This document shows, in pieces, positions 26,365 to 48,069 of a DNA stretch of 48,069 nt. Within the stretch, counting starts at the first letter, position 1, and every line of letters starts with the position of its first letter. The DNA is from a virus, in IMG/VR virus record IMGVR_UViG_3300042398_000275, positions 1 through 48,069 of that record. One strand, given 5' to 3'. The notes beneath the pieces were generated by a model. It worked only from the letters and a program-made list of their open reading frames with translations. It made no database searches and was not told the origin of the DNA. A program made the position numbers and the translations under genes.

Positions 26365-26389
26365 TTTTTAAAGTACATCTTGTATCCAT

Positions 26390-26396
26390 CTAAATA
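26390..26396 (+). promoter_or_regulatory. Possible late-promoter variant before the cassette
   Basis: CTAAATA lies in the 48-base gap between the last structural gene and the first cassette gene, with an AGGAG ribosome site at 26402-26406. It differs from NATAAATA by one base. The predicted start of transcription would fall close to the ribosome site, which weakens the case. Confidence 0.3.
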
Positions 26397-26412
26397 CTCT
26401 TAGGAGTGATCG

Positions 26413-26718
26413 ATGGATACAAAAACTTTAATAAGCGACGCCAAAGCCCGTTTTAGCCACAATGCCGCAAAAGCATACTTGAAAGAAAAGTATGAAGCCC
26501 GTTTAATTGTGGCTGAGCAAGGTGGTCTTTGGAGAGCTAACACCAACACAATCAGTTTCTTAAATAGCGTTCAAATGGATACAGTCGTACTAATCGACAC
26601 GTTTGAGAACCCAGTTGAGGTTAATCGCAGTGAACTACTGACCAAACTAACAGAAACGTATGACTCTGTTATGCGGGAGTGGTTAAATGAATGGGCAGAA
26701 CTAGAGAAGAAAAGATGA
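26413..26718 (+). CDS. Conserved small phage protein, unknown function (101 aa)
   Basis: A charged, mostly helical protein with a short strand region in the middle. It starts with KTLISDAKARFSHNAAKAYL and ends with a helix through WLNEWAELEKKR; the middle (GGLWRANTNTISFLNS, then VVLIDTFENPVEV) is beta-like. The style is one I recognise from T4-like marine phages, where it sits near fibre genes, but I know no function. AGGAG at 26402-26406 is 6 bases before the ATG. The stop overlaps the next gene's ATG (ATGA), so it heads the coupled cassette. A chaperone or assembly factor for the fibres is possible but unproven. Confidence 0.6.
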   Translation: MDTKTLISDAKARFSHNAAKAYLKEKYEARLIVAEQGGLWRANTNTISFLNSVQMDTVVLIDTFENPVEVNRSELLTKLTETYDSVMREWLNEWAELEKKR

Positions 26719-27524
26719 CCAGAGGTGCATTACTTTTTGCCTTTAACTCACCGAAATACAATTACTACGAAATGGCAGAGTTTGCTGCCAAACGTATTAA
26801 TCACTTTCTAGGGTTACCTGTAACAATCGTTACGGACGAAAAGAGCATACCTGAAAATCCTACTTACAAGTTTGATAATACAATCATTGTAGAACCTGAT
26901 AAGAACAATATCAGAGACCATGTAGTTTGGATTAATAAGGGTCGCTATCAAGCGTACACGCTAAGTCCCTATGACGAAACATTGTTACTAGATACAGACT
27001 ATATTGTTAACAGCGATAAGTTGTTAGCAACCTTTGATTCGGCAGAAGATTTCTGCTGTCACGATACAACAAACTTTTTGATGTACCCAAAAGCACCACA
27101 GGAAGTATTAAGTGCATACAGCTTTAAGACATTGTGGGCTACTGTTATCATGTTCAAAAAGACTAACAGAGCAAAGCAAATTTTTGACTGTTTAGAAATG
27201 GTACAGAAAAACTATGAACACTATGCTAACATTCATAGTTTCATTGCAGGTGTATACCGCAATGACTATGCATTGACATTAGCACTTAGAATCGCTAACG
27301 GACATCTCAATTACGATGATGACATTATTCCATGGAACTTAGTTCACGTGGGTAAGAACACCTCAGTATATCCTAATGGTACTGATGAGTTCAGTACCGA
27401 ATATACTGTAATGTATGATAATTGGCAGCGTGGTAAGATTCGTAAAGAGTTTATAACAGTTAAAGACATGGACTTTCACGTAATGAATAAAGACAATTTC
27501 TTGGAGTTGATGAAAAATGGATAA
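26715..27524 (+). CDS. GT-A-like glycosyltransferase 1
   Basis: 269 residues with a nucleotide-sugar transferase layout. The N-terminus (GALLFAFNSPKYNYYEMA) leads into a Rossmann-like half with PVTIVTDE. A DTD motif follows at D93-D95 in LLLDTDYIV, the position where GT-A enzymes bind metal and the sugar diphosphate. Beyond it lie an acceptor-type region and HVGKN near the C-terminus. The style is closest to GT8-like enzymes, but the donor sugar cannot be read. I chose the ATG at 26715, which overlaps the previous stop as ATGA with GAGAAGAAAAG upstream; an in-frame ATG 24 bases earlier would add eight residues within the previous gene. The end overlaps the next gene by 8 bases. Confidence 0.65.
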   Translation: MTRGALLFAFNSPKYNYYEMAEFAAKRINHFLGLPVTIVTDEKSIPENPTYKFDNTIIVEPDKNNIRDHVVWINKGRYQAYTLSPYDETLLLDTDYIVNSDKLLATFDSAEDFCCHDTTNFLMYPKAPQEVLSAYSFKTLWATVIMFKKTNRAKQIFDCLEMVQKNYEHYANIHSFIAGVYRNDYALTLALRIANGHLNYDDDIIPWNLVHVGKNTSVYPNGTDEFSTEYTVMYDNWQRGKIRKEFITVKDMDFHVMNKDNFLELMKNG

Positions 27525-28320
27525 AGGTTTTGTAATCATTTCACAAGACGGTGGACATGCAAACACATATCAAAAGTGTTCACATGCATTAGCAAAAAGC
27601 ATCAAACGTTTTATGCCCGATGCTAAAGTCTCTATCATTACTGACAACAAAGTCACTACCCCTGAGTTGTATGACAAGATCATACCATTGCCTTACGGAG
27701 ATCAATCACCTAAGAGCTTTTGGAAATTGAATAACGATTGGCAAGTCTATGAAGCTAGCCCATACGAATATACTATCAAGTTAGAAGCTGACATATACTT
27801 ACCACGTTCAATTGAACACTGGTGGGATGCATTGAAGCACAGAGACTTAGTAATTGCTACAACTATACGTGACTTTAAACAAGAGATTAGTCCATCACGT
27901 GTATATCGTAGATTGCTTGACGAAAACCATTTACCAGACACTTATAATGCTATCACGTATTTTAAGAAGTCTGAAACAGCAGAAGAATTCTTTAAATTAG
28001 TGCGCCATATATTTGAGAACTGGCCTGAGTTCAGAGCTATTCTTAAATGCAGTCCATATGAAGAAGCAACTACTGATTGGGTGTATGCATTAGCTACACA
28101 TATTATGGGTGTTGATAAATGTATACTGCCCGAATTCACTGAGATGAGTATGATTCACATGAAGCGATTGATTAACAATCTGCCTACTGAGGATTGGACA
28201 GACGCATTGATTTATGAAGTACTTCCACATACCCTAAGAGTCAATTCTTGTCCACAGCTTTATCCATTTCACTATCATGTGAAGTCTTTTTCGAATAAAA
28301 TACTAGAAGCCTATGTCTGA
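27517..28320 (+). CDS. GT-A-like glycosyltransferase 2, degenerate DxD
   Basis: 267 residues, organised like the preceding gene: an N-terminal strand-helix unit (GFVIISQDGG, then SIITDNK) and a segment KLEADIYLP where the DxD motif is expected. Here it reads E90-A-D92, so the first acidic residue is Glu. A WW pair after the motif (EHWWDALKHRD) and a C-terminal EMSMIHMK region could form the acceptor side. The Glu change may alter metal binding or mark a different donor; activity is uncertain. It overlaps both neighbours by 8 bases, so it is made together with them. A pairwise comparison with the first glycosyltransferase would settle whether they arose by duplication. Confidence 0.6.
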   Translation: MDKGFVIISQDGGHANTYQKCSHALAKSIKRFMPDAKVSIITDNKVTTPELYDKIIPLPYGDQSPKSFWKLNNDWQVYEASPYEYTIKLEADIYLPRSIEHWWDALKHRDLVIATTIRDFKQEISPSRVYRRLLDENHLPDTYNAITYFKKSETAEEFFKLVRHIFENWPEFRAILKCSPYEEATTDWVYALATHIMGVDKCILPEFTEMSMIHMKRLINNLPTEDWTDALIYEVLPHTLRVNSCPQLYPFHYHVKSFSNKILEAYV

Positions 28321-28672
28321 TACAATACAACAAGATGACGAAGTAATCATATTTTGGGAAGCTCCCAAAATAGTCCCACCAGAGTTCCGCTTATACTACG
28401 AAGTAGATACTGGTAAGGTCATATGCTATACTTGCGAAAAACTTGAGGGTGACAATTATCTAGTTATCGATGCAATAACTTTTGCTCAGGCTCGTCCTGA
28501 TACTAGAGTTATTGATGGAAAGATTTCTACAGCAAGCAATCATGCGATTGTTTCTAAGTTAATGCCCAATCCTTCACGTGGTCAACTATGTGAAGCAGAA
28601 GATGTTAGTATTGTTGCGTCAGATGAGTCAAATACTATAAGATGGAAACTAAACACATATGAGCTTAAGTGA
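28313..28672 (+). CDS. Small protein of unknown function (119 aa)
   Basis: Not recognised as a named family. It has an acidic N-terminus, then a beta-rich pattern (FRLYYEVDTGKVICYTC, then NYLVIDAITFAQARPDTRVI) and a basic/polar C-terminal half ending in IRWKLNTYELK. Two cysteines (ICYTCEK) lie three apart; whether they bind metal is unknown. I see no membrane segment or signal peptide. Its start lies 8 bases inside the previous gene and its end overlaps the next by 14 bases, so it belongs to the same coupled unit between glycosyltransferases. An accessory or partner role for these enzymes is inference from position. Confidence 0.55.
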   Translation: MSDTIQQDDEVIIFWEAPKIVPPEFRLYYEVDTGKVICYTCEKLEGDNYLVIDAITFAQARPDTRVIDGKISTASNHAIVSKLMPNPSRGQLCEAEDVSIVASDESNTIRWKLNTYELK

Positions 28673-29612
28673 TATTGTAGATGTTGCAGACTTAGACTGC
28701 ATCTATCTCAGTTATGATGAACCGCAGAAAGAAGAATTTTGGTTAAAGATTAAGAACATGGTGCCTTGGGCAAAGCGTGTTGACGGGGTCAAGGGTTCAG
28801 ATGCCGCACACAAAGCCGCAGGAGAAGCATCAGATACAGAACGATTCATATTGATTGACGGGGATAACATGCCCGACGAATCGTTTTTCAATATGCAACT
28901 TGACTTTACAGGTAAACCTGCAAACTATCAACTAGCGCAGTTTCGTTGGAAGGCAGTCAATGCTATCAACGGATTACGTTATGGTAATGGTGGCATGAGT
29001 TCTTGGACAAAGTCCTACGTTGCAAATATGAAAACACACGAAGCACAGAAAGACGGTGATAGTTCACGTATTGCTGACTTCTGCTTAGATAGCAAAGATA
29101 ACTTGTATTGGGCAATGTATGATTGCTACAGTACTACATATCCTAATCACACTCCGTTTCAAGCTTGGAGAGCAGGCTTTAGAGAAGGAGTCAAGATGTG
29201 TCTTAACAAGGGCGAAGTCCCTACTGTTGACGAATTTAAAGAAACAGTTGCTAGTCGCAACTTGAACAACTTGACTATTTGGCAGAACGTAGGCGCAGAT
29301 ATAGAGAATGGCATGTGGGCTATCTACGGCGCCAGGCTTGGCACATACATGACTCTGCTTACTGATTGGGACGCCCATAATGTACAATGGTTTGACAATT
29401 ATACAGTATTGTGGGAAGAACATATTAACCGTGATCCTGAACGTGAAGCAACATTGGTAGGCGCGGCATTACATGACAAGTTAGGTTTACCGATGTGTAC
29501 GCTAGGTAAAGAACAAAGTAAGTTCTTTAAACGTCACTATCAAGCCGACTATCATAATCAAGGCCCGTTAGTTACTGAGATGGAAGTTATCCGCAGAATT
29601 GAAGGATGGTAA
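28659..29612 (+). CDS. Glycosyltransferase-like protein 3 (DGD motif)
   Basis: 317 residues. The N-terminal third has DLDCIYLSYDEP, a WAKRVDGVKGSDAAHKAA stretch and ILIDGDNMPDE, with D67-G-D69 as the probable DxD metal/donor site. This is the layout of glycosyltransferase-like domains that I associate with marine phage genomes. The C-terminal two thirds are Trp- and Tyr-rich (YWAMYDCYSTTYP, FQAWRAGFREGVKM) and may bind the acceptor. It differs in the order of segments from the two preceding glycosyltransferases, so it is a separate subfamily. Its stop shares one base with the next gene's ATG (TAATG), tying it to the radical SAM genes that follow. The acceptor is unknown. Confidence 0.6.
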   Translation: MSLSDIVDVADLDCIYLSYDEPQKEEFWLKIKNMVPWAKRVDGVKGSDAAHKAAGEASDTERFILIDGDNMPDESFFNMQLDFTGKPANYQLAQFRWKAVNAINGLRYGNGGMSSWTKSYVANMKTHEAQKDGDSSRIADFCLDSKDNLYWAMYDCYSTTYPNHTPFQAWRAGFREGVKMCLNKGEVPTVDEFKETVASRNLNNLTIWQNVGADIENGMWAIYGARLGTYMTLLTDWDAHNVQWFDNYTVLWEEHINRDPEREATLVGAALHDKLGLPMCTLGKEQSKFFKRHYQADYHNQGPLVTEMEVIRRIEGW

Positions 29613-31021
29613 TGAGCGAAAGCCACGAACAAAAACGAATTAAAGAAATTAAGATCAGGGTTGAAAACGAGTCTGGTCCTACGTTCTGTCTTGCCAAATG
29701 GCATCACGTAACGATGTACTTACAATCAGGTGAGACACATAGTTGCTATCACCCTGCACCACACAAGATTCCATTACAAGAACTATACGATAACCCTTCT
29801 GCATTGCATAATACACAGCAGAAGAAAGAAGAACGTAAACTAATGCTCGATGGTGGCAAGCCTACTGGTTGTCAGTATTGCTGGAATATTGAAGCAATGG
29901 GTCCTGATTATATCAGTGACCGTCACATTCGGAACGCAAGTATCTTCACTGAAGAACGATATGAACAAACCGCAAAGGGTCCGTGGAATCAAAACATCAA
30001 CCCCGAGTACATCGAAATTAACTTCGGTAACGAATGTAACTTTAAGTGTGGATACTGTCATCCTAAATACAGTACAAGCTTCTACAAAGAGATTGAACAG
30101 AATGGTCCTGTTACTTCGGTAAAAAACCATCGTTGCGATATTGATTGGATGAAGTTGTATCAGCGTGAAGATGATAACCCGTACGTTGATGCGTTCTGGG
30201 AGTGGTGGCCAGAGATGCGTAAGACATTGAACATCTTACGTGTTACCGGTGGAGAACCTACACTACACAAGAGCACATGGACATTGTTGGAAAAGATTGA
30301 CGAAGATCCTATGCCTTGGTTAGAGTTGAACATCAACAGTAACTTAGGTACTAAGCCTATTCTTATTGAGCGTCTTGCTGAAAAGGTTAAGAAGCTTACT
30401 GACGAGGGTAAGATTAAATCTTTCAAGTTGTTTACTAGCTTAGACACATGGGGACCTCGTTCTGAATATATTCGTACAGGACTTAACTTAGAGTTGTGGG
30501 AAAAGAACTTCCATACATATCTGCAAGGCACTGATAGCCCTATCACGTTTATGATTACGTTCAACATCTTCAGTGTGACTACATTCAAGAGTTTCTTAGA
30601 GAAGTTTATTGAATGGCGTAAGATTTACGGATGGTATGATGACCCGGTCAACCCACAGCATCGTGTACGTTTTGACACACCTTATCTACGTGATCCTATT
30701 CAGTATGATATGAACATTCTTCCTAAAGAAGAATTTATGCCCTACATGTATGAAGCATTAGAGTACATGAAGGAAAATACTGATGACAAACGCAGTGATG
30801 CATTCAGCAGTATTGAGTATGAGAAGTTCAAGCGTGTGGTTGACTACATGGCTGAAACTGTCTACTCAGAAGAAAAAATAATCGAAGGTCGTAGAGATTT
30901 CTACAATTGGTTCAATGAATTAGACGAGCGCCGCGACACAGACATGTTAGCAGTGTTTCCCGAATACTTGAGCTTCTACCGATTGTGCCAAGAAGCTAAT
31001 CAACTGAACCCTTTAAAATGA
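29612..31021 (+). CDS. Radical SAM protein with N-terminal twitch-type cysteines, paralogue 1
   Basis: 469 residues. The radical SAM cluster motif is C142-x3-C146-x2-C149 (NECNFKCGYC), followed by the TGGEP motif that contacts SAM's amino end. Before it lie C26, C45, C87 and C90 (GCQYCW), the four-cysteine layout of an N-terminal twitch domain that would hold an auxiliary iron-sulfur cluster. This matches twitch-domain radical SAM proteins of phages and marine bacteria, whose substrates are not known to me. The copy differs from the next two: it lacks the FPW/LPW after the first cysteine and the CC pair. I chose the ATG at 29612, with AAGGA five bases upstream and TAATG coupling; an ATG 6 bases earlier is in frame. 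Confidence 0.8.
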   Translation: MSESHEQKRIKEIKIRVENESGPTFCLAKWHHVTMYLQSGETHSCYHPAPHKIPLQELYDNPSALHNTQQKKEERKLMLDGGKPTGCQYCWNIEAMGPDYISDRHIRNASIFTEERYEQTAKGPWNQNINPEYIEINFGNECNFKCGYCHPKYSTSFYKEIEQNGPVTSVKNHRCDIDWMKLYQREDDNPYVDAFWEWWPEMRKTLNILRVTGGEPTLHKSTWTLLEKIDEDPMPWLELNINSNLGTKPILIERLAEKVKKLTDEGKIKSFKLFTSLDTWGPRSEYIRTGLNLELWEKNFHTYLQGTDSPITFMITFNIFSVTTFKSFLEKFIEWRKIYGWYDDPVNPQHRVRFDTPYLRDPIQYDMNILPKEEFMPYMYEALEYMKENTDDKRSDAFSSIEYEKFKRVVDYMAETVYSEEKIIEGRRDFYNWFNELDERRDTDMLAVFPEYLSFYRLCQEANQLNPLK

Positions 31022-32247
31022 ACAAAGACTTTCTACTAAACGACAGCAAAACATTCTGTATGTTTCCGTGGTTGCACTTAAATGTGACACCAAAAGGTGA
31101 CATATACCCTTGCTGTAGTAACGACTACACAACACCTTTTGGTAATACTAAAGAGGTTACACTCAAACAAGCATTCAACAACCCCAAAATGAAAGAACTC
31201 AGATTGGATATGCTTAATGAACGTAAGAATGAAATCTGTAAGTTCTGCTATCAGCACGAAGAAGCAGGTCCGCATAGCTTCCGTAACTATAGCAAAGAAC
31301 ACTTCGGTAAGCACTTTGATGAAATAGTCCCCACAACCAAGGAAGACGGAACGGTTGAGGACTTTAAGATGCACTACTTTGATATCAGATTCAGTAACAT
31401 CTGTAACTTCAAATGTCGTACATGTGGCTCAGAATTTTCTAGTCAATGGGGCATGGAGATGAACAAGAACTATGATAAGAATCACCCAATCGTTATTCAC
31501 GTAGATGACGGTAAAGGTAAAGTTCTTGAGGAAGTACTCGAACACGTAGAGCATATTGACCTAGCATACTTTGCTGGTGGCGAACCACTAATCACAGAAG
31601 AACATTATGTGATGCTAGAAGAAATGATTCGCAAGGGTCGTACCGATATTACATTACGATACAATACAAACGCAAGCAATATCAAGTACAAGAATCACAA
31701 TGTACTTGACTTATGGAAACACTTTAAGAAGGTTGAGTTGAGTTGTTCAATTGACCATTACGGCGAACGTGCTGAACTATTACGAGCCGGAACCGATTGG
31801 GGCAAAGTTGAAAGTAATCTGTTAACATTCCGTGACTTAGATTATGTCAGCTTCCAAATGAACACCGTATTCTCAATTTTCAACTATATGACTATTGGTG
31901 AGTTCTATCAATATCTCAAAGACAAGAACATTGTGCGTAAAGAAGATTGGTATCACAGTTTGTATCTAGCAGTACATCCTGACTACTACAGTGCTAAGAG
32001 TCTACCCAAAGAGTTAAAGATTGAAGCCGCTGAAAAGGCAATGAAGTGGGTAGATAGTAACAAGAATGACTATACTTGCCTCCCCCGCTTAGTTACTGAT
32101 GCAGTTAACTTTGCTAAAGACGGTGACAGTTGGAGTGAAGTTCGTACAAAGTTTTTAGGTCATACTAAATCGTTAGATCGTATCAGAGATGAAAGTTTCT
32201 GGAAAACGTTCCCTGAATTAAATAAATTATCTGAATTGTTGGAGTAA
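31018..32247 (+). CDS. Twitch-domain radical SAM protein, paralogue 2
   Basis: 409 residues. The N-terminal twitch-type region has C14 (TFCMFPWLHLN), the C32-C33 pair (IYPCCSND) and C74-x2-C77 (EICKFCYQ), enough for an auxiliary iron-sulfur cluster. The SAM cluster follows as C129-x3-C133-x2-C136 (NICNFKCRTC), then AGGEPLIT. The C-terminal part carries VELSCSIDHYGERAELLR, typical of the barrel strand before the substrate face. The twitch domain thus precedes the radical SAM core, the reverse of SPASM proteins. The gene starts with an ATGA overlap and lies directly between two relatives, suggesting tandem duplication. Substrate unknown; a sugar or peptide is plausible from context. Confidence 0.85.
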   Translation: MNKDFLLNDSKTFCMFPWLHLNVTPKGDIYPCCSNDYTTPFGNTKEVTLKQAFNNPKMKELRLDMLNERKNEICKFCYQHEEAGPHSFRNYSKEHFGKHFDEIVPTTKEDGTVEDFKMHYFDIRFSNICNFKCRTCGSEFSSQWGMEMNKNYDKNHPIVIHVDDGKGKVLEEVLEHVEHIDLAYFAGGEPLITEEHYVMLEEMIRKGRTDITLRYNTNASNIKYKNHNVLDLWKHFKKVELSCSIDHYGERAELLRAGTDWGKVESNLLTFRDLDYVSFQMNTVFSIFNYMTIGEFYQYLKDKNIVRKEDWYHSLYLAVHPDYYSAKSLPKELKIEAAEKAMKWVDSNKNDYTCLPRLVTDAVNFAKDGDSWSEVRTKFLGHTKSLDRIRDESFWKTFPELNKLSELLE

Positions 32248-32249
32248 TC

Positions 32250-33521
32250 ATGGATAAAGTAACAGTTGAAAGCTTAGTCAAACATGGCAAGCATTTCTGC
32301 GTATTGCCCTGGGTGCATTTTCATTCATGGCCTGATGGTCGTGTTATGCCTTGCTGTATCGCAGACAGCAATATGCCCGTAGCCGATCTTAAAAACGGTG
32401 AGTCTATCATCAATATGATGAATAGCGAGGACTATAAGAAACTGCGTAGCGCAATGATGAACGATGAGCCGGTTGACGCTTGTAAGCGTTGCTATGACTT
32501 AGAGTTAATGGGTACATGGACAATGCGTCAAAGTCACAATAAGCGTAAAGGTCTAGAGTATGTAGATTATATCGCAGACAGTACATTAGATGACGGAAGT
32601 CTCATTGACTTTGAAATGAAGTACATGGACTTACGTTTCAGTAATATCTGTAACATGAAATGTCGCAGTTGTGGACCTGGCTGCTCTAGTCTATGGGCAC
32701 AAGAATTTATAGACCGTGTTGATATGGACAACTATAAGAAGTATTTCAACACAACTAAGGTAGTAGTTAACGCATCAGAAGAAATGGACTTTATGAACAA
32801 ACTAAAGCCCTATCTAAATGACGTTACAGAAGTATATTTTGCAGGTGGTGAGATTGTCATTACTCCAGAGCACTATGAATGCTTAGACTACTGGATTGAA
32901 AACGGAATTAACGAAACAATTGAGTTGACTTATACAACAAACTTCAGTACATTGAAGGGCTATAAGGACAATGACTTGATTGAATATTGGAAGAAATTCC
33001 CTAAACTGAAGATTTGGGCATCACTTGACGCACATGGTGATGTTGCTGAATGCATCAGAAAGGGTACAGATTGGGATCGTATTGTTAAAAATATCAAGTT
33101 AGTTAAAGAGCAAGTTCCGCATGCTGAATTTCAGATTACTCCAACTATCAGCATTTGGAACGTGTTCACATTCCCTGACTTCTTTGACTACATGGTCAAC
33201 GAAGGGTTTATTGATACTAAGAGTAGCCCCCGCTTCAACTTAGCAACTAACCCATGGTATGCTAACATTATGATCCTACCCGTTAGTGTAAAGCGCAGAC
33301 TGGCAGAGTTGTATCGTGTCTATCAGAATAGATACAAAGATAACATTGATATCTACAATGGATTCAAGATGATTATCTATAACTTGACAGTTGGTGATGA
33401 GAACAAAGAGGGTATCTTAGAGTTCATCAAGTTCAATGAGGAGCTTGATGTATATCGTAAAGAAAAACTAGAAGAAATCGTACCAGAACTTAAAGAGGTG
33501 TTTGATTGGGCAAGAAACTAA
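32250..33521 (+). CDS. Twitch-domain radical SAM protein, paralogue 3 (GGEI variant)
   Basis: 423 residues, clearly related to the preceding protein: C17 (HFCVLPWVHFH), C35-C36 (VMPCCIAD) and C78-x2-C81 (DACKRCYD) for the auxiliary cluster, then C134-x3-C138-x2-C141 (NICNMKCRSC) with an extra C145 close by. The following motif reads AGGEIVIT instead of the usual GGEP; the acidic residue that binds SAM is kept, so it may still be active. A segment LKIWASLDAHGDVAE corresponds to LSCSIDHYGERAE of paralogue 2. Two bases separate it from the gene upstream, with TTGGAG as ribosome site, and its end overlaps the next gene by 16 bases. Confidence 0.83.
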   Translation: MDKVTVESLVKHGKHFCVLPWVHFHSWPDGRVMPCCIADSNMPVADLKNGESIINMMNSEDYKKLRSAMMNDEPVDACKRCYDLELMGTWTMRQSHNKRKGLEYVDYIADSTLDDGSLIDFEMKYMDLRFSNICNMKCRSCGPGCSSLWAQEFIDRVDMDNYKKYFNTTKVVVNASEEMDFMNKLKPYLNDVTEVYFAGGEIVITPEHYECLDYWIENGINETIELTYTTNFSTLKGYKDNDLIEYWKKFPKLKIWASLDAHGDVAECIRKGTDWDRIVKNIKLVKEQVPHAEFQITPTISIWNVFTFPDFFDYMVNEGFIDTKSSPRFNLATNPWYANIMILPVSVKRRLAELYRVYQNRYKDNIDIYNGFKMIIYNLTVGDENKEGILEFIKFNEELDVYRKEKLEEIVPELKEVFDWARN

Positions 33522-40668: not shown

Positions 40669-42725
40669 AACTTTGGTTTAGTATAGTTGAACATAATTTC
40701 AACAGTGAAGGGTTACTCAATATACTTGAGGAAGCAGTAAGTAAAAACGCCGATGAAGTTGTATTACTTGCCGAAACAGAATGGCAAACGCCCGGTCTAT
40801 ATGATGCAATAGTTAATAGATACAATGACAAGAACGTTAAGTTAACTATTATATATTGTTCAGTCAACAGTCCATATTATGAGAAATTCTGTAGCGACAC
40901 CGGCCTAGATATTAACAATTTACATTTCTGGCCTACCTATTGGTTGACTTGGAGCTTTGAGAATCTCTGTAGTACAGGAACATATCAGAACTTTACCGTT
41001 AATCCTGATGAACTTATATATCCATTTATATCATTAAACAACCGTAGTCACTTACATCGTTGTGTGTTTATGGATGAGTTGGCTAAGCAGAATCTAATTG
41101 ATAAGGGTGTAGTAACATGGGTCAAGCATTTGAATGAGAACCTAAACTATCCTTATCAACACTTTGATAATCGTCAATTAACATTAGAAGATGATTTTAA
41201 AACAAAGCTTGATTCATTCTTGATTCCTAAAGAGTTTAATCAATCATTGTTTCACGTAGTAACAGAAGCCACACACATTGCAGGGTTTATCAGTGAAAAG
41301 ACCGCTATCCCATTACTATTACAGAAGCCTTTTTTTGTAATATCGGCCCCAGGATATGTAAAGCATTTAGATGATTTAGGTTTTAAACGCTATGACGAGA
41401 TTATCGATTATAGTTATGACGATATAGAAGACCTACAACTACGTACAGAAAAGTTTGTTGACAATATTCATAGATTTAAGGACTTGAATCTAAAAGAAAC
41501 ATATGAGTTGCTAAGACCAAAGATTGAATATAATCACAAACGTGCATTACAGTTAATCCATGACCCTAATCAAATTCCTGATTTAATCAAAGAACGATAC
41601 GAAATCATTGAAAAAGAAGGTCGTACAATGCTTACTGACCATAGATATGTTAAGCTTGTTACTGATACAATGGACCCGTTAACAATGCATATTTGGGATA
41701 ATGATTTAAAAGAAAAAATCTTAAATATTCCTAATAGGTATTACGGTATAAACAGAATTATCCTTAACTCTGCGATAGAATACAATTATGATTTTATTGG
41801 CGGGCATAGAGATTTAATGAATTTTCTCATTCATATAACCAATAGATCAAACATTAAATTAGACATTATTACCGGTACACATTCCAATTACAAAAAAATC
41901 AATACTGATTTACATGAACATGTTAGTGTATATTACTGGCCTACGTTTTGGTTAACTATGTTGCTTATGCGTTTGTCGGTCAGTCCTAATTATCAGATGA
42001 ACAATTCAATTGGATTAGACATTCAAAAGATGCGTGTGAATGAACATACCCCTTTGCGTTATCCATATATCACAATGAATAAAGCTCCTAAGGTTCATCG
42101 TGCTATGATGATGGATATGCTTGCTAAGTATGAATTGATTGACAAGGGCGTGTGTATTTGGCGTGAACCTGCATGTAACTATCAGTATCAATATTGGACT
42201 GAAGAACTGTTAATGCGTGACCAAAAAGAAGGCTTTAGATATCAAGAACAACTACCAGTAGAGTATGCACTATCGTTCATGCAGATTGTTCCTGAATCTG
42301 ATGAAGAAATCTTTACAATGAGCGAAAAGACAGGCATGGCACTGTACTTCAACAAGCCGTTCTTAGTTATGGGTTGCATGAACTTTCACAAGATTCTGCA
42401 AGAACTTGGATTCAAACTGTATGACGAATTGTTTGATTATAGCTTTGACAGTGAGCCAGATACACTAAAGCGTTGCGAGTTAATTGCTCAAAACGTACAG
42501 CGTTATGCTGATAAGACTCCTGATGAATTAAAAGAATTGTATAAGTTAGTGTTTGAAAAATGTGTATATAACAAAGAAGTAGCAATCAAATTAGCCACAA
42601 ATAGTGAACTAATTCCTGAGGTTTGGCAAGACTTAGTGGACAGTCAATTGAAAAATAATATAGCCGACAGTGCTCCCGATATAAATAATTTCATCAAATC
42701 CACCAAGCATGAATTTAGACTTTAA
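40665..42725 (+). CDS. Duplicated EKT-domain protein, probable double GT-B-like glycosyltransferase
   Basis: 686 residues made of two related halves. Each half has FWPT(Y/F)WLT-type sequence (HFWPTYWLTW; YYWPTFWLTM), then a N-x-x-x-HR block (SLNNRSHLHRCVFMDELA; TMNKAPKVHRAMMMDMLA) ending LIDKGV, then the EKT block (E211 in SEKTAIPLLLQKPFFVI; E554 in SEKTGMALYFNKPFLVM) and the GFK(R/L)YDE segment with YDDIED or SFDSEP. The halves match along nearly their whole length, so this is an internal duplication and fusion. Two active sites with different acceptors, or one active and one structural half, are both possible. It overlaps neighbours by 4 and 17 bases. Confidence 0.6.
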   Translation: MKLWFSIVEHNFNSEGLLNILEEAVSKNADEVVLLAETEWQTPGLYDAIVNRYNDKNVKLTIIYCSVNSPYYEKFCSDTGLDINNLHFWPTYWLTWSFENLCSTGTYQNFTVNPDELIYPFISLNNRSHLHRCVFMDELAKQNLIDKGVVTWVKHLNENLNYPYQHFDNRQLTLEDDFKTKLDSFLIPKEFNQSLFHVVTEATHIAGFISEKTAIPLLLQKPFFVISAPGYVKHLDDLGFKRYDEIIDYSYDDIEDLQLRTEKFVDNIHRFKDLNLKETYELLRPKIEYNHKRALQLIHDPNQIPDLIKERYEIIEKEGRTMLTDHRYVKLVTDTMDPLTMHIWDNDLKEKILNIPNRYYGINRIILNSAIEYNYDFIGGHRDLMNFLIHITNRSNIKLDIITGTHSNYKKINTDLHEHVSVYYWPTFWLTMLLMRLSVSPNYQMNNSIGLDIQKMRVNEHTPLRYPYITMNKAPKVHRAMMMDMLAKYELIDKGVCIWREPACNYQYQYWTEELLMRDQKEGFRYQEQLPVEYALSFMQIVPESDEEIFTMSEKTGMALYFNKPFLVMGCMNFHKILQELGFKLYDELFDYSFDSEPDTLKRCELIAQNVQRYADKTPDELKELYKLVFEKCVYNKEVAIKLATNSELIPEVWQDLVDSQLKNNIADSAPDINNFIKSTKHEFRL

Positions 42726-43521
42726 AAAATATAAACGCATATTCGCATTTGGGTGCAGTTTTACGCACTACAAGTGGCCAACGTGGGCAGACTTAATATC
42801 AATCGAATCCCCTGACGCAATCTATCGTAACTATGGCTTTGCAGGCATGGGCAACCTAGCTATTTCAACACGTATCATTGAGGGTAGCAAACGTTTCAAC
42901 TTCAATAGTGATGACTTAATCTTAGTAATGTGGTCTACATTCTGTAGAGAAGATCGTTGGCTTAACGGCAGATGGTTTACTCAAGGCAGTGTGTATAATT
43001 CAACATATCCAGAAGATTGGATCAGAGATTACACTGACCCTAATGGTTACTTAATACGTGACCACGCACTAATCTATTCAACAAATCAGTATATAAAGAG
43101 TTTGGACTGTGATTCAGTCATACTCAAAAGTAGCCCCTTCGACTATACAGAAACAAACCCTGACAAAGAATCAGCTTATGTGCGTGATCAATTGTCACTC
43201 ATATACAAGAATGACTACAATAATTTGCCACTAGACTTTTATACATTTAATGGTAGTAGTTGGGGAAATGATACACAAGAATTTTTCGATGACTATAATA
43301 CTGATATAAAAATTCAAACTTGGCGCACAGATAGTCATCCATTTTCAGGATCCTATGTGAAATACCTAGAATTTATAGGCATTAAACTAAGTGATAGTAC
43401 AAAACGATTCGCAAATACATTTGACGAATTTATTAAAAGAAAACCTAAGATCACAGAGATGAATAAAAACATCGATTTTCTAAGACAGAATGTTGATCTA
43501 GGTGTAAATAGAATTTTTTGA
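42709..43521 (+). CDS. SGNH/GDSL-type hydrolase 2
   Basis: 270 residues. Block one is FAFGCSFTHYK with S17 as likely nucleophile; GFAGMGNLAIS supplies the Gly and N49 of the oxyanion side; D208-S-H210 (RTDSHPFSGSYVKYL) is the probable Asp/His of the last block. About 50 residues follow that are charged and helical, with no clear role. Compared with the first SGNH protein it shares the GCS-(W/F)-T opening and the glycine-rich Asn block but little else, so the two probably act on different acyl groups. It has no signal peptide. Its ATG lies 17 bases inside the duplicated glycosyltransferase gene. Confidence 0.6.
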   Translation: MNLDFKKYKRIFAFGCSFTHYKWPTWADLISIESPDAIYRNYGFAGMGNLAISTRIIEGSKRFNFNSDDLILVMWSTFCREDRWLNGRWFTQGSVYNSTYPEDWIRDYTDPNGYLIRDHALIYSTNQYIKSLDCDSVILKSSPFDYTETNPDKESAYVRDQLSLIYKNDYNNLPLDFYTFNGSSWGNDTQEFFDDYNTDIKIQTWRTDSHPFSGSYVKYLEFIGIKLSDSTKRFANTFDEFIKRKPKITEMNKNIDFLRQNVDLGVNRIF

Positions 43522-43534
43522 TTTTGAGGAACAC

Positions 43535-46500
43535 ATGAAAAAAGTAGCAATGATTGGTGTAGGTAAGTTAGGACAAGATTGTGCAGAGGTTATGGCTGAC
43601 GCAGGGTATGACGTTGTAGGATATGACGTAGAGACTAGGCTTCCAATGTTCCCTATGAAAGATACAATTGAAGAAGCAGTTAAAGACAGAGACTTAATCT
43701 TCATCGCGGCCCCTACTCCGCACGATCCTATCTACGGTGGTGAAACACCAACAAGTCACTTGCCTAACAAGGACTTTGACTATACTATCGTTACAGATAT
43801 CTTGAAAGAGGTCAATAAACACGTTAATAGAAGTCAATTGGTTGTCCTCATCAGCACAGTGCTACCCGGAACAGTTCGTAGCATCCTAGAGCCTTGTATC
43901 ACTAATGCAAGATTCATCTACAACCCATACTTAATTGCTATGGGTACTGTAAAATGGGATATGGTAAATCCAGAGATGGTAATCATTGGCACAGAAGATG
44001 GTAGCCTCACGGGTGATGCTAGTGAACTAATTGACTTCTATAAAGTGTTTATGCAGAATGATCCACGATATGAAGTTGGTACATGGGACGAAGCAGAATC
44101 TATCAAGATATTCTACAACACATTTATCAGTACTAAGCTTGCACTTGTAAACATGATCCAAGACGTTGCTGAAACAAATGGTAATATTAACGTTGACATA
44201 GTTACAAATGCATTAGCAAAGAGTAACTATCGCATCACTGGCCCTGCATACATGAAAGCGGCTTTTGGTGATGCAGGAGCATGTCACCCGCGTGATAACA
44301 TTGCATTGCGTTATCTGTCCGATAGGTTAGATATGGGCTATGACTTGTTTGATGCTATTATGAAAGCACGTGAAGTACAAGCAGAGCGTATGGCATTACG
44401 TTGCTTGCGTAATGGTAAGAACATTACTATCGTTGGTAAAGCGTATAAGCCTGCAGTTCCATATACAATTGGTAGTGCTAGTATGTTAGTAGGTTACTAT
44501 ATTGAGAAGCATGGTGGCAACTTAAACTACTATGATCCTAACACTGGTGATATGGACTTGCGTGAAGACTGGACACACGTATACTTAATAGGCTATTGGG
44601 AAGATTGGGTTGAGAAGTTACAGTTTAGCGATCCAGGCTGTGTAGTTATTGATCCATGGCGTAAGCTAACAACTAGACAACACACTGGTGAAATCATTCA
44701 TTATGGTGACACACGATCAAAGAAAACATACAGTGTCCCTGAATCTACTATTCAGACAATGCGTAATCAAGTCTATGAGATGTTCACTGATTTAAGACAA
44801 CATGATAGTGAAATTCATTTGGTTGATAGTACTATTAACATGGACACAACATTTGTATTGCGTCCAACAGAAGATTTAGTAAAAGAATTGCTTGAAGCAA
44901 AAGCACAAGGTCGTAGTAAGTTCTTGTTCTTTGCACCAACAGAAGCATTTATGCCTCATGTAGTGTCTAAAGTTCAACGTCTTGCTAGCATACTAGATGG
45001 TAAAATCGATGAAGCTGATATTACAGTTATTACCGGCGTCATTGACGCTGATGAAGTTTACGAACGCCTTTTAAAAAAAAACGGTTGGAACAAGCGGCTT
45101 AATCTATTAAACTGTCATTTCTTTAATTACATAACCACTACGTATGCTCGTGGCTACGAGTTTATTGGTGGATATGATGTACGTTTCCGTGGCAAGATAT
45201 TTACTTGCTTTAATAAACTAAACCGTGAACACCGTCTAGTATTACTAGAACGTATGTTACGAACTAACCTGATTGATAATGCATATTATTCATTTGAGGG
45301 TGAGAGCGACTTTAAACAAAACATTCCAACACTAAGCAATGAAGAATTCCCAGAAATCAAACGCAATGAAGACCGTTTCCCTATTCGATTAAACATTACA
45401 CCTGAACGTCATAACCCAGTTGACATTCAGCCTGATGATTTACATTATTACAAAGACAGCTATTTTTCAATCGTATCTGAGACACTGTTCTATAATAAAG
45501 ATAGACTGGGTCAAGCACATAGACCTTTTGTTGAGGACTCATTGTTCTTAACAGAAAAAACATATCGTTGCTTTGCAACATTGCATCCATTCATATTAAT
45601 GGCTCGTCCTCATTCATTGAAAGAGTTGCGTAAGCAGGGCTACAAAACATTTACTCCGTTTATTAATGAATCATATGATGATATTGAAGACGATAACCAA
45701 CGCTTTGAGGCTATCTTTAAGGAAATCGTTAGATTGAATCTCTTTACAGGTGCTGATTGGACATTGTGGCAAGAAGGTATCAAACCTATCGTAGAATATA
45801 ACAAAGAATTCTTTCACAATAACAAAGACTTTGCTATTACAAAAGACTATTTACGTTACTTTGGTCATGCTGTTCCTGCTCAAATTGTTGTACAAGAACA
45901 ACCTAAAACTGAAACACCTAAGTTAGAACAGGAATCAATGATTGAATCAGTAATACAACGACTTATTAACGGCTCTCCACCAGAACCAGAACCCAAAGAT
46001 TTAACACCAATGGAAGCATTGAGTAATAAACTAGATTGGAGAAACAGTCAAGTTGTTTACGATAATGGAATAACACTTAACTTCCCATGTCATATTGATG
46101 GTGGGGGAGATTTATATAGAAATGAATTGATAGCATTGATTGAAAGAACCGGACAGAAAACTAATTATGAATCAGCACTTGATTGGTGTGCAGGTCATGG
46201 ACCTTTTGGTTTTGAATTAATAGATAGTAACATTGCAGAAATTGTAACGTTTATGGATTCCTACGCACCTGCGATAGAATCATGTATTAAGAATGCACAG
46301 GAAAACAACATCGCTGATAAGGTAACTGGTTACACATGTGATAAGATATCATTGATTCCAATAACTGAAAAGTTTGATTTGGTAGTGGCAAACCCTCCCC
46401 ATAGTAATATTACAACCTATATAGAAAAGAATGAATTCTTTGCAAACACTGTTAGAATGATAGTTGATGAGGGATTTGAAATGCATAGAGAATTCTTTGA

Positions 46501-46672
46501 CAATATTCATAAGTACTTAACTGATGATGCTGATGTATACATTACCGCCGGCAACAACTTAACACCCTTTGCAAATTGGGCATATGCAGGTCAATTGAAG
46601 TTTATGGGTTTTAGTCCATGTGCTAGTGCTCAAGGTGGTATCTATCATTTTAGAAAAATTACTCCAAACTGA
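43535..46672 (+). CDS. Trifunctional fusion: nucleotide-sugar 6-dehydrogenase, EKT domain, methyltransferase
   Basis: 1,045 residues. Residues 1-400 form a UDP-glucose/GDP-mannose dehydrogenase: NAD motif MIGVGKLG, STVLPGT, the catalytic C250 in GACHPRDNIAL and GKAYKPAVPYTIGSAS; the product would be a uronic acid. Residues ~400-810 hold an EKT unit: FNKLNREHRLVLLERML, then E674 in TEKTYRCFATLHPFILM, KQGYKTFTPF and ESYDDIEDDNQR. After a Pro/Glu-rich linker (~812-850) comes a methyltransferase with DWCAGHGPFGFE at ~882 and VVANPPHS at ~950, like the NPPY type of PrmC/HemK-class enzymes. GAGGA lies four bases before the ATG. The fusion implies that oxidation, transfer and methylation act on one product. 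It ends the cassette. Confidence 0.75.
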   Translation: MKKVAMIGVGKLGQDCAEVMADAGYDVVGYDVETRLPMFPMKDTIEEAVKDRDLIFIAAPTPHDPIYGGETPTSHLPNKDFDYTIVTDILKEVNKHVNRSQLVVLISTVLPGTVRSILEPCITNARFIYNPYLIAMGTVKWDMVNPEMVIIGTEDGSLTGDASELIDFYKVFMQNDPRYEVGTWDEAESIKIFYNTFISTKLALVNMIQDVAETNGNINVDIVTNALAKSNYRITGPAYMKAAFGDAGACHPRDNIALRYLSDRLDMGYDLFDAIMKAREVQAERMALRCLRNGKNITIVGKAYKPAVPYTIGSASMLVGYYIEKHGGNLNYYDPNTGDMDLREDWTHVYLIGYWEDWVEKLQFSDPGCVVIDPWRKLTTRQHTGEIIHYGDTRSKKTYSVPESTIQTMRNQVYEMFTDLRQHDSEIHLVDSTINMDTTFVLRPTEDLVKELLEAKAQGRSKFLFFAPTEAFMPHVVSKVQRLASILDGKIDEADITVITGVIDADEVYERLLKKNGWNKRLNLLNCHFFNYITTTYARGYEFIGGYDVRFRGKIFTCFNKLNREHRLVLLERMLRTNLIDNAYYSFEGESDFKQNIPTLSNEEFPEIKRNEDRFPIRLNITPERHNPVDIQPDDLHYYKDSYFSIVSETLFYNKDRLGQAHRPFVEDSLFLTEKTYRCFATLHPFILMARPHSLKELRKQGYKTFTPFINESYDDIEDDNQRFEAIFKEIVRLNLFTGADWTLWQEGIKPIVEYNKEFFHNNKDFAITKDYLRYFGHAVPAQIVVQEQPKTETPKLEQESMIESVIQRLINGSPPEPEPKDLTPMEALSNKLDWRNSQVVYDNGITLNFPCHIDGGGDLYRNELIALIERTGQKTNYESALDWCAGHGPFGFELIDSNIAEIVTFMDSYAPAIESCIKNAQENNIADKVTGYTCDKISLIPITEKFDLVVANPPHSNITTYIEKNEFFANTVRMIVDEGFEMHREFFDNIHKYLTDDADVYITAGNNLTPFANWAYAGQLKFMGFSPCASAQGGIYHFRKITPN

Positions 46673-46701
46673 TTGCAAATTCAGTAATTCAATAGTATAA
46701 T
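46673..46701 (+). promoter_or_regulatory. sigma70-like promoter between cassette and last gene
   Basis: TTGCAA at 46673-46678 and TATAAT at 46696-46701 are separated by exactly 17 bases, the ideal spacing for host sigma70 polymerase. It begins one base after the stop of the fusion gene, and transcription would start near 46708, just before the AGGAG ribosome site at 46715. The -35 box matches TTGACA at four of six positions; the -10 box is perfect. Confidence 0.65.
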
Positions 46702-46725
46702 AATAAAGAAACCTAGGAGCAAATT

Positions 46726-48069
46726 TTGGATTTTACTTTAAGATCATTGGCAGTTGACGAACTAAAGCCTAAGGAACGTCCCACAGAGGATATCGCGGAT
46801 GCACGCCATCGTAGTATGATGGAAGCAATTGCTCCTTATGCTAAGACGACTGTACAAAAGAACTTAACTCCTGTATATGTTGATTACAAGACCCGCAACA
46901 CAAAACTAGCATTAGTATTGTGTCCTGAATGGTCACCCTACATGCCCCCGTTTAGTCTTGCCCGATTGAGCGGTGTTGCTAAGAGTTCGGGTTATGAGAC
47001 ACACATAATTGACTTGAACGTTAAAGCGTATAACGCATTTAAGAAAGACTGGTGGCCTAATCAAAGAATTCCATTCAGACTATGGGATCCTTCTAGCTCT
47101 TGGCATTGGATGGGCGATACTTACATGAATGATATTCATCCATTGTTAGGTCCTGAGATATTAAGCCCTGCAGTAGATAAGATCATTGAAATGAATCCTG
47201 ATGTAGTAGGCTTCAGTGTTTACTATATCAGTGAAGAACCTACCAAGTGGATGTGTCAAGAGATTAAGCGTAGAGCACCTCACATTAAGATTGCTGTAGG
47301 TGGACCTAACGTACACAAGAGTTGGTTCGCAACACATCCATACTATGACTATGTTGTAGTAGGTGAAGGTGAACAGAACTTACTTGTCATGCTTGACGAG
47401 ATTGAAGAAAAGAAAGAAGTAGAATATCCTCGCTATCTTACACAGCCTGAAGAACAACGTATCAATATTAACGGTTTGCCGATGCCTGACTATGAATCTA
47501 TTGATTTCAGTCAGTATGAATTACCTAATGGTGTGAATAGTGAGATATCACGCGGATGTACAGCTAAGTGTACATTCTGTGAAGAAACACACTTCTGGAA
47601 GTATCGTCAGCGTCAGAGTGTTGACTTGATTACTGAAGTTGAGTGGTTGTATTACAATAAAGGTACAGATATTATTTGGTTCATTGATAGTCTTATCAAT
47701 GGTAACCCTAAAGAACTACGTGCGTTTGCTCTTGCTCTTAAAGAGAAAGACTTGAAAGTAAAGTGGACAGGCTATGCACGTTGCGATGGTCGTATGGACC
47801 TAGCGTTCTTACAAGACTTGGCAGATGGCGGCTGTATCATGTTTAACTTTGGTGTTGAATCAGGTTCACAAAAAGTTCTTGATGACATGGCTAAAGGTGT
47901 TACTATTAAAGAGATGGAACAAAATTTCATCGATTGTAAAAAAGTTGGTATCTGGGCAGCTACTAATTGGATTGTAGGATTTCCCACAGAAGACTACCAA
48001 GACTATAGTGACACAATGACATTCTTATGGCGTATGCGTAACAACAATATCAACAACGCAGGACTAGGT
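46726..48069 (+). CDS. B12-binding-domain-type radical SAM protein, 3' end outside window (TTG start)
   Basis: 448 codons are visible and the frame is open at the right edge. After a 55-residue N-terminal extension, residues ~60-230 form a B12-binding-like domain (KLALVLCPEWSPYMPP, PDVVGFSVYYISEE, IAVGGPNVHKSW, YVVVGEGEQNLL). The SAM cluster is C278-x3-C282-x2-C285 (SRGCTAKCTFC), followed by IIWFIDSLINGN and FNFGVESGSQKVLDDM, typical of the B12-radical SAM superfamily. The DxHxxG cobalamin motif is not clear. The TTG at 46726 is chosen because AGGAG lies six bases before it; no ATG occurs earlier in this frame after the previous gene. It differs from the other B12-type protein of the cassette. 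It probably opens a new operon from its own sigma70-like promoter. Confidence 0.75.
   Translation, partial: MDFTLRSLAVDELKPKERPTEDIADARHRSMMEAIAPYAKTTVQKNLTPVYVDYKTRNTKLALVLCPEWSPYMPPFSLARLSGVAKSSGYETHIIDLNVKAYNAFKKDWWPNQRIPFRLWDPSSSWHWMGDTYMNDIHPLLGPEILSPAVDKIIEMNPDVVGFSVYYISEEPTKWMCQEIKRRAPHIKIAVGGPNVHKSWFATHPYYDYVVVGEGEQNLLVMLDEIEEKKEVEYPRYLTQPEEQRININGLPMPDYESIDFSQYELPNGVNSEISRGCTAKCTFCEETHFWKYRQRQSVDLITEVEWLYYNKGTDIIWFIDSLINGNPKELRAFALALKEKDLKVKWTGYARCDGRMDLAFLQDLADGGCIMFNFGVESGSQKVLDDMAKGVTIKEMEQNFIDCKKVGIWAATNWIVGFPTEDYQDYSDTMTFLWRMRNNNINNAGLG

Follow-up and report, generated by a model that had tools for sequence, protein, structure and literature searches.

This locus raises the question of what a phage would do with a run of radical SAM enzymes encoded among genes for making and transferring sugars, next to its fibre genes. 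The window, i.e. the whole stretch of 48,069 nucleotides that was analysed, is part of a large uncultured bacterial virus, with a line of about 18 genes, apparently for sugar making and transfer, adjoining tail-fibre genes. The ORF list, which left out ORFs shorter than 60 aa, gave 18 ORFs (A to R) between 26413 and 48069, all on the + strand. Seventeen of these (A-Q) overlap or sit 2-13 nt apart. A spacer of 53 nt precedes R (46726-48069), which is truncated at 448 of about 750 aa where the window stops, its full length being judged from relative locus L181 and the median of 750 aa in relatives. The first-pass annotation had described 15 coupled genes and one more; the coupling and the separate place of R held, but the count was slightly low, the actual number being 17 plus R. 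Two small proteins of the cassette, A (26413-26718; 101 aa, present in 7/7 relatives, no Pfam match) and D (28313-28672; 119 aa, 52-85% in 7/7 relatives), are of unknown role. Recent import into this phage was rejected, as G+C showed no step across the window.

Upstream of the cassette, on the same strand, lie a gp6-like baseplate wedge protein, which served as lineage marker (392-3766; phrog_10646, E 8e-260), a giant virion structural protein of 6528 aa (3777-23363; phrog_10938 over about residues 1031-3436), and two further proteins, g04 and g05. g04 (24184-25404; 23% Ser+Thr) is fibre-like with a Peptidase_G2 (IMC) domain (PF11962, 26.7 bits; cut-off 25), and g05 (25414-26364; 30% Ser+Thr, 71-91% identity in 7/7 relatives) was taken as a second fibre-like protein from composition and place. 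Both are candidate acceptors, and the giant protein is a possible one. Among the matches listed, the cultured phages nearest to this gp6 were Phosso, XbC2, Atu_ph07, GAP32 and 121Q, at 32-35%. The description of the source as a marine phage found no support, gp6 being nearest to such jumbo phages, and a marine T4-like phage was likewise not supported.

Ahead of the cassette stands a late-promoter-like element, TCTAAATAC (26389-26397, + strand), with the hexamer TAAATA. This hexamer, which we take to resemble the T4-type late promoter consensus, occurs 20 times on the + strand, with 5 copies within 386 nt of spacer against 0.16 expected. The spacer before R (46673-46725, + strand) is without TAAATA and carries a sigma-70-like site, TTGCAA-17-TATAAT. 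A sigma-70 promoter as the rule before R was rejected, TATAAT being present in 14/76 upstream stretches, several of them not at R. Among 55 distinct stretches upstream of R from relatives, TAAATA was present in 31; the 24 without it, and the sigma-70-like site without TAAATA in the window, count against the reading proposed below.

The motif CxxxCxxC was found in exactly 6 of the 23 ORFs examined and, together with family matches, confirmed the six radical SAM proteins of the first-pass annotation as F, G, H, I, N and R. The twitch radical SAM proteins F (29606-31021), G (31018-32247) and H (32250-33521) scored 313, 376 and 357 bits, respectively, with NF033640 (curated cut-off 170 bits), and four N-terminal Cys are invariant in their alignment; a PDB search with the F-H profile gave weak core matches (viperin, HydE) and no maturase. 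The fourth protein, I (33506-34498), with a Cys-rich C-terminus (13 Cys), matched PF04055 at 31.7 bits and NF033640 at 27.8 bits, the latter under the cut-off of 170. A cellular origin of the quartet was rejected, since NF033640 was above cut-off in 1/21 genomes and that contig (L256) looks phage-like. Weaker twitch matches at E 0.001, obtained in 18/21 genomes, mean little because all 14 control genomes gave them too. N (38737-40668) and R are B12-binding radical SAM proteins, each with PF02310 and PF04055 above cut-off. N aligned with the cobalamin-dependent radical SAM methylases TokK (268 bits) and CysS (188 bits) over about 420-460 residues and, to judge from this likeness, is probably a C-methylase; we call it TokK-like, and not KedN5, because its score with the KedN5 family NF033712 (253 bits) was below the cut-off of 700. 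The best NCBIfam matches of R were RiPP and P-methyltransferase families, all under cut-off.

Among families of known structure, K (35804-36781) matched the Arabidopsis GDP-mannose 3,5-epimerase (2c59) at 337 bits, against 108 bits for the next SDR family. The GxxGxxG motif, catalytic Cys, YxxxK, catalytic Lys and conserved Arg, from the residue list of PMC6678494, were all kept in the alignment. K is predicted to be a GDP-mannose 3,5-epimerase-like enzyme, that being the nearest family, as had been proposed. The sugar dehydrogenase fusion was likewise recovered, as Q (43535-46672), which joins a UGDH region (residues 1 to about 395; PF03721, 61.5 bits, and PF00984, 50.6 bits, both above cut-off) to an EKT domain recognised by its motif (about 400-800). 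A Cys retained in the alignment of the UGDH domain is presumably the catalytic one, and Q scored 136 bits with the NDP-sugar dehydrogenase family TIGR03026, under its cut-off of 189.8. Q also carries an MTS-type methyltransferase domain (about 837-1010) that was absent from the first-pass annotation.

Three GT-A-like proteins had been claimed, and B, C and E answer to this description. B (26691-27524; DTD motif), a putative GT8/glycogenin-like enzyme, and C (27517-28320; phrog_1903, function unknown), a putative GT-A-like one, gave a joint profile that matched glycogenin (best E 2e-5). The AF2 model of E (28659-29612; pLDDT 80.5) points to GT-A over residues 6-162, with VIA Z 9.9 to B4GALNT1 (3.1 Å over 143 residues) and 2p6w as top Foldseek match (E 6e-4, TM 0.32/0.45); a PDB search with the profile of E gave chance rows only. 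Four EKT proteins with five EKT domains were also borne out, the five motifs falling in J, L, O (twice) and Q. The model of J (34485-35807; AF2 pLDDT 92.1), an EKT-family glycosyltransferase, has a GT-B fold, with VIA Z 12.8 to exostosin (274 residues, 4.4 Å) and 11.9 to GT10; rows for exostosin, GT10, GtfC and T4 BGT all lay within about 1.5 Z, so no single GT family is singled out; J was the EKT protein modelled. L (36778-37863; TEKT motif) is 31% identical to both halves of the tandem protein O (40665-42725), which are 33% identical to each other (E 2e-38), and both are putative EKT glycosyltransferases. J, L and O had no Pfam match, and a PDB search with the EKT profile gave nothing useful. 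As for the two SGNH hydrolases claimed, the motifs are present in M (37824-38744; GCSWT, IHP) and P (42709-43521; GCSFT, DSHP), but neither has a Pfam match, and both are SGNH-like by motif only.

The cassette is more than a chance assembly, because relatives of the jumbo-phage type keep it in synteny and extend it with genes for a DegT-like protein, a StrB1-like amidinotransferase and a carbamoyltransferase (each viral scan covered the best 80 loci of more). The gene order g04-B-C-E-F was found in 13/13 loci examined, 7 close relatives and 6 distant, and the order fibre-GT-GT-GT-rSAM was kept in the same loci, the radical SAM quartet following the fibre-GT block. In the distant-order scan, 81 loci had a match resembling E, and the 28 in which 5 kb or more preceded this match on the + strand were scored. 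The six counted, from the Q scan, have E at at least 38%; in the other 22 (23-30%) g04 is missing, and the matches seem to be E-like domains in other settings. H was present at at least 69% in 15/16 lineage records and at 44% in the remaining one, K in 12/16, N in 13/16 (K-N association not significant, p 0.14) and the StrB1-like amidinotransferase in 11/16, three of the 11 matches with one internal TGA. The expectation that relatives carry the same genes was borne out for the twitch radical SAM core; the sugar modules varied. A single obligate pathway was rejected on the varying presence of K and N, which speaks against one fixed linear pathway. In the proposed check for co-variation with fibre genes, fibres and cassette were both present in 7/7 close relatives and both look inherited, so that it does not discriminate. 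In four records, perhaps of two lineages, gp6 is 37-38% identical and yet K is 68-70% and N 64%; since K and N are far more alike than gp6, cassette genes have moved between phage lineages.

Cellular homologues of N sit beside sugar genes: Epimerase was found in 19/117 near genes against 4/82 far (p 0.014) and GDP_Man_Dehyd in 16/117 against 2/82 (p 0.006), with p-values uncorrected and loci not independent. Aldo/keto reductase was found in 12/117 near genes and was absent among the 25 far families listed, which we took as at most 1/82. Of 80 cellular loci, 63 entered the comparison (L241, L256, L308 and L312 were set aside by hand, and in 13 no ORF was recognised as N). Of 118 near genes, 117 were counted, L244:20603-21928 being left out because it did not lie near; through crude ORF picking, some of those classed as near are several kb away. 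None of the 18 cassette ORFs, of which R is incomplete, has a strongly hydrophobic segment (the highest mean over 19 residues was 1.43). TM-like ORFs made up 16/1625 in phage loci, a total in which some contigs are counted double because L002-L029 and L162-L240 overlap, against 133/1065 in cellular loci, and two small TM-like proteins lie a few kb past R in 4/79 R loci.

We propose, giving this reading an even chance, that the cassette encodes a late, cytosolic pathway of nucleotide-sugar tailoring and transfer whose acceptor is most likely a virion protein. Q would supply a uronic acid. N and R, as cobalamin-dependent methylases, may tailor the sugars or the finished glycan, on which F, G, H and I may carry out radical oxidations or epimerisations; in relatives, genes past this window's end may add amination, amidination and carbamoylation. 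About eight GT-A and GT-B domains would then carry out the transfer to an acceptor that is soluble, with the fibres or further virion proteins from the genes just upstream as the most likely target. What was observed is gene content, conservation and gene order, the predicted folds of J and E and the catalytic residues kept in K; from these we infer substrates, step order, timing and acceptor. That an unusual sugar is built and transferred, as first suggested, is supported by K with its residues kept, UGDH with its Cys, the two GT folds, the nearness of N to TokK/CysS and the sugar genes near N homologues; the DegT-like, StrB1-like and carbamoyltransferase genes of relatives were counted on the same side. 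The phage's own fibres, the target then suggested, are favoured as putative acceptor by the late-type hexamer in spacers of the structural genes, the few membrane proteins and the kept fibre-GT-rSAM order. However, fibre adjacency may merely reflect a place in one variable late region, and the target may instead be lipid-linked glycans of the host at the inner face of its membrane, which would be compatible with few membrane proteins. Twitch radical SAM proteins often act on peptides, so F-I may not touch sugars. A fuller version, in which a cobalamin-dependent pathway puts a C-methylated (in relatives also guanidino/carbamoyl) L-hexose/uronic acid glycan on the phage's own fibres, with aminoglycoside-like chemistry as armour or adhesin, is tentative and rather doubtful.

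Remodelling of the host surface, with O-antigen or capsule precursors changed so as to block superinfection or other phages, is unlikely in our view. It is the published reading of similar gene sets, host-surface change being proposed for pelagimyophages (PMC7029224) and the S-SCSM1 set being filed under cell-wall synthesis and modification (PMC9602691), and it fits the cellular N homologues among sugar genes. Against it are the late-type elements, the linkage to fibres, and the lack of a TM-like protein in the window cassette, with few in relatives, so that no flippase or membrane transferase was seen there.

Quite unlikely is that F-I are RiPP-like maturases acting on fibres while the sugar genes form an independent module within the same late region. 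The invariant Cys of F-H, a radical SAM core steadier (H in 16/16) than K or N, the NCBIfam matches of R and the place of the quartet after the fibre-GT block would agree with this, but no precursor peptide was recognised among the listed ORFs, the GT genes B, C and E lie within the same conserved block, and the PDB matches of F-H held no maturase. Glycosylated or hypermodified phage DNA is improbable. The EKT fold resembles T4 beta-glucosyltransferase (Z 11.3), one of many GT-B rows, and pentose on phage DNA has reportedly been seen in one study (PMC12838424); however, the cassette sits among tail genes, and 12 of 23 relatives had a single match each to PF00303 (thymidylate synthase), while 11 fragments had none. 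With a T4-type dCMP hydroxymethylase a second PF00303 family member would be expected; none was seen among the 23 relatives, and T4-type DNA glucosylation was rejected on this ground. A secreted or intracellular antibiotic- or aminoglycoside-like small molecule, suggested by the solved relatives nearest to N and by the relatives' StrB1-like protein, which are natural-product enzymes, is scarcely credible given the many glycosyltransferases, the lack of an exporter-like TM protein in the window cassette and the late structural context.

The preferred pathway has partial precedents. The bleomycin sugar pathway, which includes a carbamoylation step, is like the cassette in its GME-type epimerase and glycosyltransfer, and like the relatives in O-carbamoyltransferase; this is a chemical analogy only. 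BlmG is given as GME-like in PMC6678494. In the Campylobacter phages CP220/CPt10, five radical SAM genes and an amidinotransferase form one exchangeable cluster (PMC2853527). This amidinotransferase, 32% to the StrB1-like protein of relative L015, recalls the relatives, and a nucleotide-diphospho-sugar transferase domain is present in two further proteins of the cluster. The window has six radical SAM proteins, with amidinotransferase in relatives only. The CP220/CPt10 stretch of 31 kb differs in that it gave no K, Q, N or EKT match at E 1e-3 and matched radical SAM I at 24% only, and in its surroundings, a possible baseplate lysozyme preceding the cluster by about 3 kb and a tail fibre following it at about 10 kb. 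K-like epimerases were nonetheless found in 13 Campylobacter phage records.

S-SCSM1 is reported to have GDP-mannose-3,5-epimerase, fucosyltransferases and glycosyltransferases (PMC9602691). In cyanophage S-SCSM2R, cultured on Synechococcus WH7803, a GME-like gene (59% to K) adjoins baseplate genes and is accompanied by UGDH, several GTs and a carbamoyltransferase-like gene. At another place a DegT-like gene (57% to the L002 copy) is grouped with an inosamine amidinotransferase and one radical SAM gene. Unlike the window, it has no N or twitch radical SAM match, and its modules spread over about 45 kb. The pelagimyophage host recognition cluster is a variable island, bounded by VrlC and gp14, that holds radical SAM cassettes and glycosyltransferases along with tail-fibre genes, and UDP-glucose 6-dehydrogenase (UGDH) is one of the LPS genes of these phages (PMC7029224). 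The window belongs to another lineage by gp6, with gp6 and the giant virion protein as left neighbours and the right border beyond its end. The statement that no phage pathway of such composition is described is only partly right: it was the whole combination and the TokK-like B12 enzyme that had no match in the searches made. Smaller versions exist in known phages, and the set with vitamin-B12-dependent enzymes looks new.

Phage radical SAM clusters, described in 2010, were interpreted as metabolic boosters (PMC2853527) and later as part of iron-sulfur metabolism (PMC5332604). That they are packed together with genes for glycosyltransferases and for a GDP-sugar epimerase, and that the gene order is linked to a fibre gene, suggests another testable role, glycan building, and part of the set is already present in a cultured phage, S-SCSM2R. 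If the virion is the acceptor, the sugars on phage particles would match those of antibiotics in elaborateness, with consequences for host recognition, and infection would be tied to how much vitamin B12 and S-adenosylmethionine the host can provide.

The window, an IMG/VR virus record of 48,069 bases, is a fragment, since its last gene is cut. From 26413 to its end it carries 18 ORFs, all on the + strand, and CxxxCxxC was found in 6 of the 23 ORFs examined, thereby confirming the cassette with six such proteins reported by the first-pass annotation. ORFs A to Q overlap or are separated by gaps of 13 nt or less, while R, truncated by the window end, is preceded by a 53-nt spacer. F, G and H scored above the curated cut-off for twitch radical SAM proteins and I is an additional radical SAM protein. 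Alignment of 22 proteins of the F/G/H type revealed that the three radical SAM cysteines as well as four N-terminal cysteines were invariant. N and R each possess both B12-binding and radical SAM domains. The nearest PDB entries to N were TokK and CysS, and N fell far under the KedN5-family cut-off; R was nearer to RiPP and P-methyltransferase B12 families, with every score below cut-off.

Comparison of K with GDP-mannose 3,5-epimerase of Arabidopsis gave 337 bits, as compared to 108 bits for the next family. The catalytic Cys, YxxxK, Lys and Arg, with roles as described in PMC6678494, all aligned with those of GDP-mannose 3,5-epimerase. Q is a fusion of a UGDH-like domain, in which the Cys is kept, with an EKT domain and a small-methyltransferase domain. 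Five EKT motifs are spread over four proteins (TRANSFERASES). The predicted model of one of these, J (pLDDT 92.1), has a GT-B fold, and its structure matches were led by exostosins (Z 12.8), followed by GT10 and the accessory-secretion-system protein GtfC (Z 11.9), then T4 beta-glucosyltransferase (Z 11.3); as these lie close together, J was assigned to GT-B and to no single family. The profile of B and C matches glycogenin. The predicted model of E (pLDDT 80.5) is GT-A-like across residues 6-162 and matched B4GALNT1 (VIA Z 9.9), and its first Foldseek row was a capsid-glycosylation glycosyltransferase of PBCV-1 (E 6e-4, low TM-score). M and P are SGNH-like at the level of motifs only.

Scans of viral contigs gave 156 pattern matches for N, 187 for R and at least 599 for Q; a relative is encoded by 155, 186 and at least 598 of them, respectively, and the best 80 loci were retained from each scan. 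The order F-G-H-I-J-K-(L)-M-N-(O)-(P)-Q-R was repeated in several of 20 loci inspected (e.g. L002, L003, L012, L014 and L019). The baseplate wedge protein gp6, used as lineage marker, was at least 66% identical in 16 of 27 virus records examined. All 16 carry H, at 69% or more in 15 and at 44% in one, where the copy could be a paralogue. Of these 16 records, which are fragmentary so that absences are soft, 13 have N (at least 51% identical), 12 have K (at least 65%) and 11 encode a StrB1-like amidinotransferase. K and N are also found in four records whose gp6 reaches only 37-38%, with identities of 68-70% for K and 64% for N, indicating that modules were transferred between phage lineages.

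Downstream of R, the 79 R loci (from the best 80 of 186) encode an O-carbamoyltransferase (44 loci), a compact DegT-like protein (31), a StrB1-like protein (29) and a DUF6071-like protein (56, with scores slightly under cut-off). These genes fall outside the window, and R in this phage may or may not be followed by them. The StrB1-like protein of L015 gave 342 bits with inosamine-phosphate amidinotransferase. Beyond the carbamoyltransferase, 42 of the 79 loci carry a long repeat protein family (e.g. L181:17216-21343, with 13 repeat motifs) with repeats of the kind FDFSWHPDP..PPYIYVFGNQW; its L124 member had no PHROG match.

A genome scan for N yielded 301 relatives in 365 matches, of which 80 were kept. 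Beside cellular N, Epimerase was found in 19 of 117 genes as compared to 4 of 82 genes 6.5-10 kb away (Fisher p 0.014, uncorrected), and GDP_Man_Dehyd in 16 of 117 as compared to 2 of 82 (p 0.006, uncorrected). In a contig of Nitrosopelagicus (L253), N and genes for an epimerase-like and a carbamoyltransferase-like protein are contiguous. The cellular gene neighbourhood supports some sugar as the substrate of N. A search of 50,697 phage records (E 1e-5) gave only two matches to N, at 22-26% identity. L241 (DIJY01000041.1), a 7-kb MAG contig titled Bacillales bacterium UBA5632, carries M-N-O-P-Q at 40-90% identity and is therefore probably a misbinned phage fragment. On a Puniceispirillum MAG contig (L256), which looks phage-like, an N-like protein is encoded alongside a twitch radical SAM protein and a StrB1-like amidinotransferase. 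A second phage group (L030-L081; 52 loci within the best 80 of 155) has N at about 51-54% identity, along with an epimerase (31 loci), a DegT-like gene (31), an SGNH-like family (43) and a GTP cyclohydrolase I family (38), and we read some of its proteins as QueD/QueE-like.

TAAATA, which we take to be the core of the T4-type late promoter, occurs 20 times on the + strand of the window, and five copies fall in 386 nt of spacers against 0.16 expected. The spacer copies lie at four sites: ahead of gp6, g04 and A, and behind the giant gene. The giant gene (3777-23363) is an ORF of 6528 aa for a virion structural protein, matching phrog_10938 over approximately residues 1031-3436. Of 55 distinct relatives, 31 also have TAAATA within 60 nt upstream of R, against an expectation of 0.028 per stretch; in the window, a sigma-70-like site takes its place. 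A strongly hydrophobic 19-residue stretch was absent from all 18 cassette ORFs (highest mean 1.43; R partial). TM-like ORFs numbered 16 of 1625 in sampled phage loci and 133 of 1065 in cellular loci, on crude ORF calls with some contigs counted twice, and two small TM-like families follow R in 4 of the 79 loci from the best 80 of 186. The order g03-g04-g05-A-B-C-D-E-F was intact in 7/7 close relatives, and g04-B-C-E-F in 6/6 distant loci in which E is at least 38% identical and preceded by 5 kb or more; the fibre-like g04 there retains 43-48% identity across part of its length. Ser and Thr make up 30% of g05, the other fibre-like protein. Late-type elements, few TM-like proteins and the fibre-linked order together favour a soluble, late-made acceptor, with the fibres as nearest candidates. 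The linkage of fibres and cassette could reflect merely a common variable late region.

Several related systems are described in phages. In 2010, CP220 and CPt10 were found to differ in a cluster where either phage has a putative amidinotransferase next to its five radical SAM genes in the same block (PMC2853527). A GDP-mannose-3,5-epimerase plus fucosyltransferases are reported for S-SCSM1 (PMC9602691), and 12 radical SAM genes for a T4-like environmental genome (PMC5332604). For pelagimyophages, PMC7029224 places glycosyltransferases in host-recognition clusters, counts UGDH with LPS genes and notes radical SAM cassettes that are not the same in two genomes. The best 15 phage matches of K among 257 records share 57-62% identity with it; 14 are from cyanophages and several are annotated as UDP-glucose 4-epimerase. 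Such proteins of Synechococcus phages S-SSM7, S-B05 and S-T4 are 58-62% identical to the GME-like K, and the label may be wrong. Among the cultured phages found, S-SCSM2R, which grows on Synechococcus WH7803, has the nearest partial set: UGDH and glycosyltransferases are accompanied by a GME-like gene (59% identical to K) and one resembling carbamoyltransferases, and DegT-like, radical SAM and amidinotransferase genes lie elsewhere in its genome. Its SSCSM2R_235 (L356:5828-7420), annotated as a 2OG-Fe(II) oxygenase, shares 27% identity with the carbamoyltransferase of the relatives (542 columns) and is possibly misnamed.

The proposal that the phage builds an unusual sugar and decorates its fibres or the host surface is supported in part: the sugar-enzyme and glycosyltransferase content speaks for the sugar, and the fibres are the nearest candidates for the acceptor. 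No description of a phage B12 radical SAM methylase together with these genes was recognised in the portions available of the literature searched, which was mostly non-subscription. As compared to the described phage clusters found, the cassette is larger and chemically richer, and its TokK-like B12 enzymes are the clearest new element.
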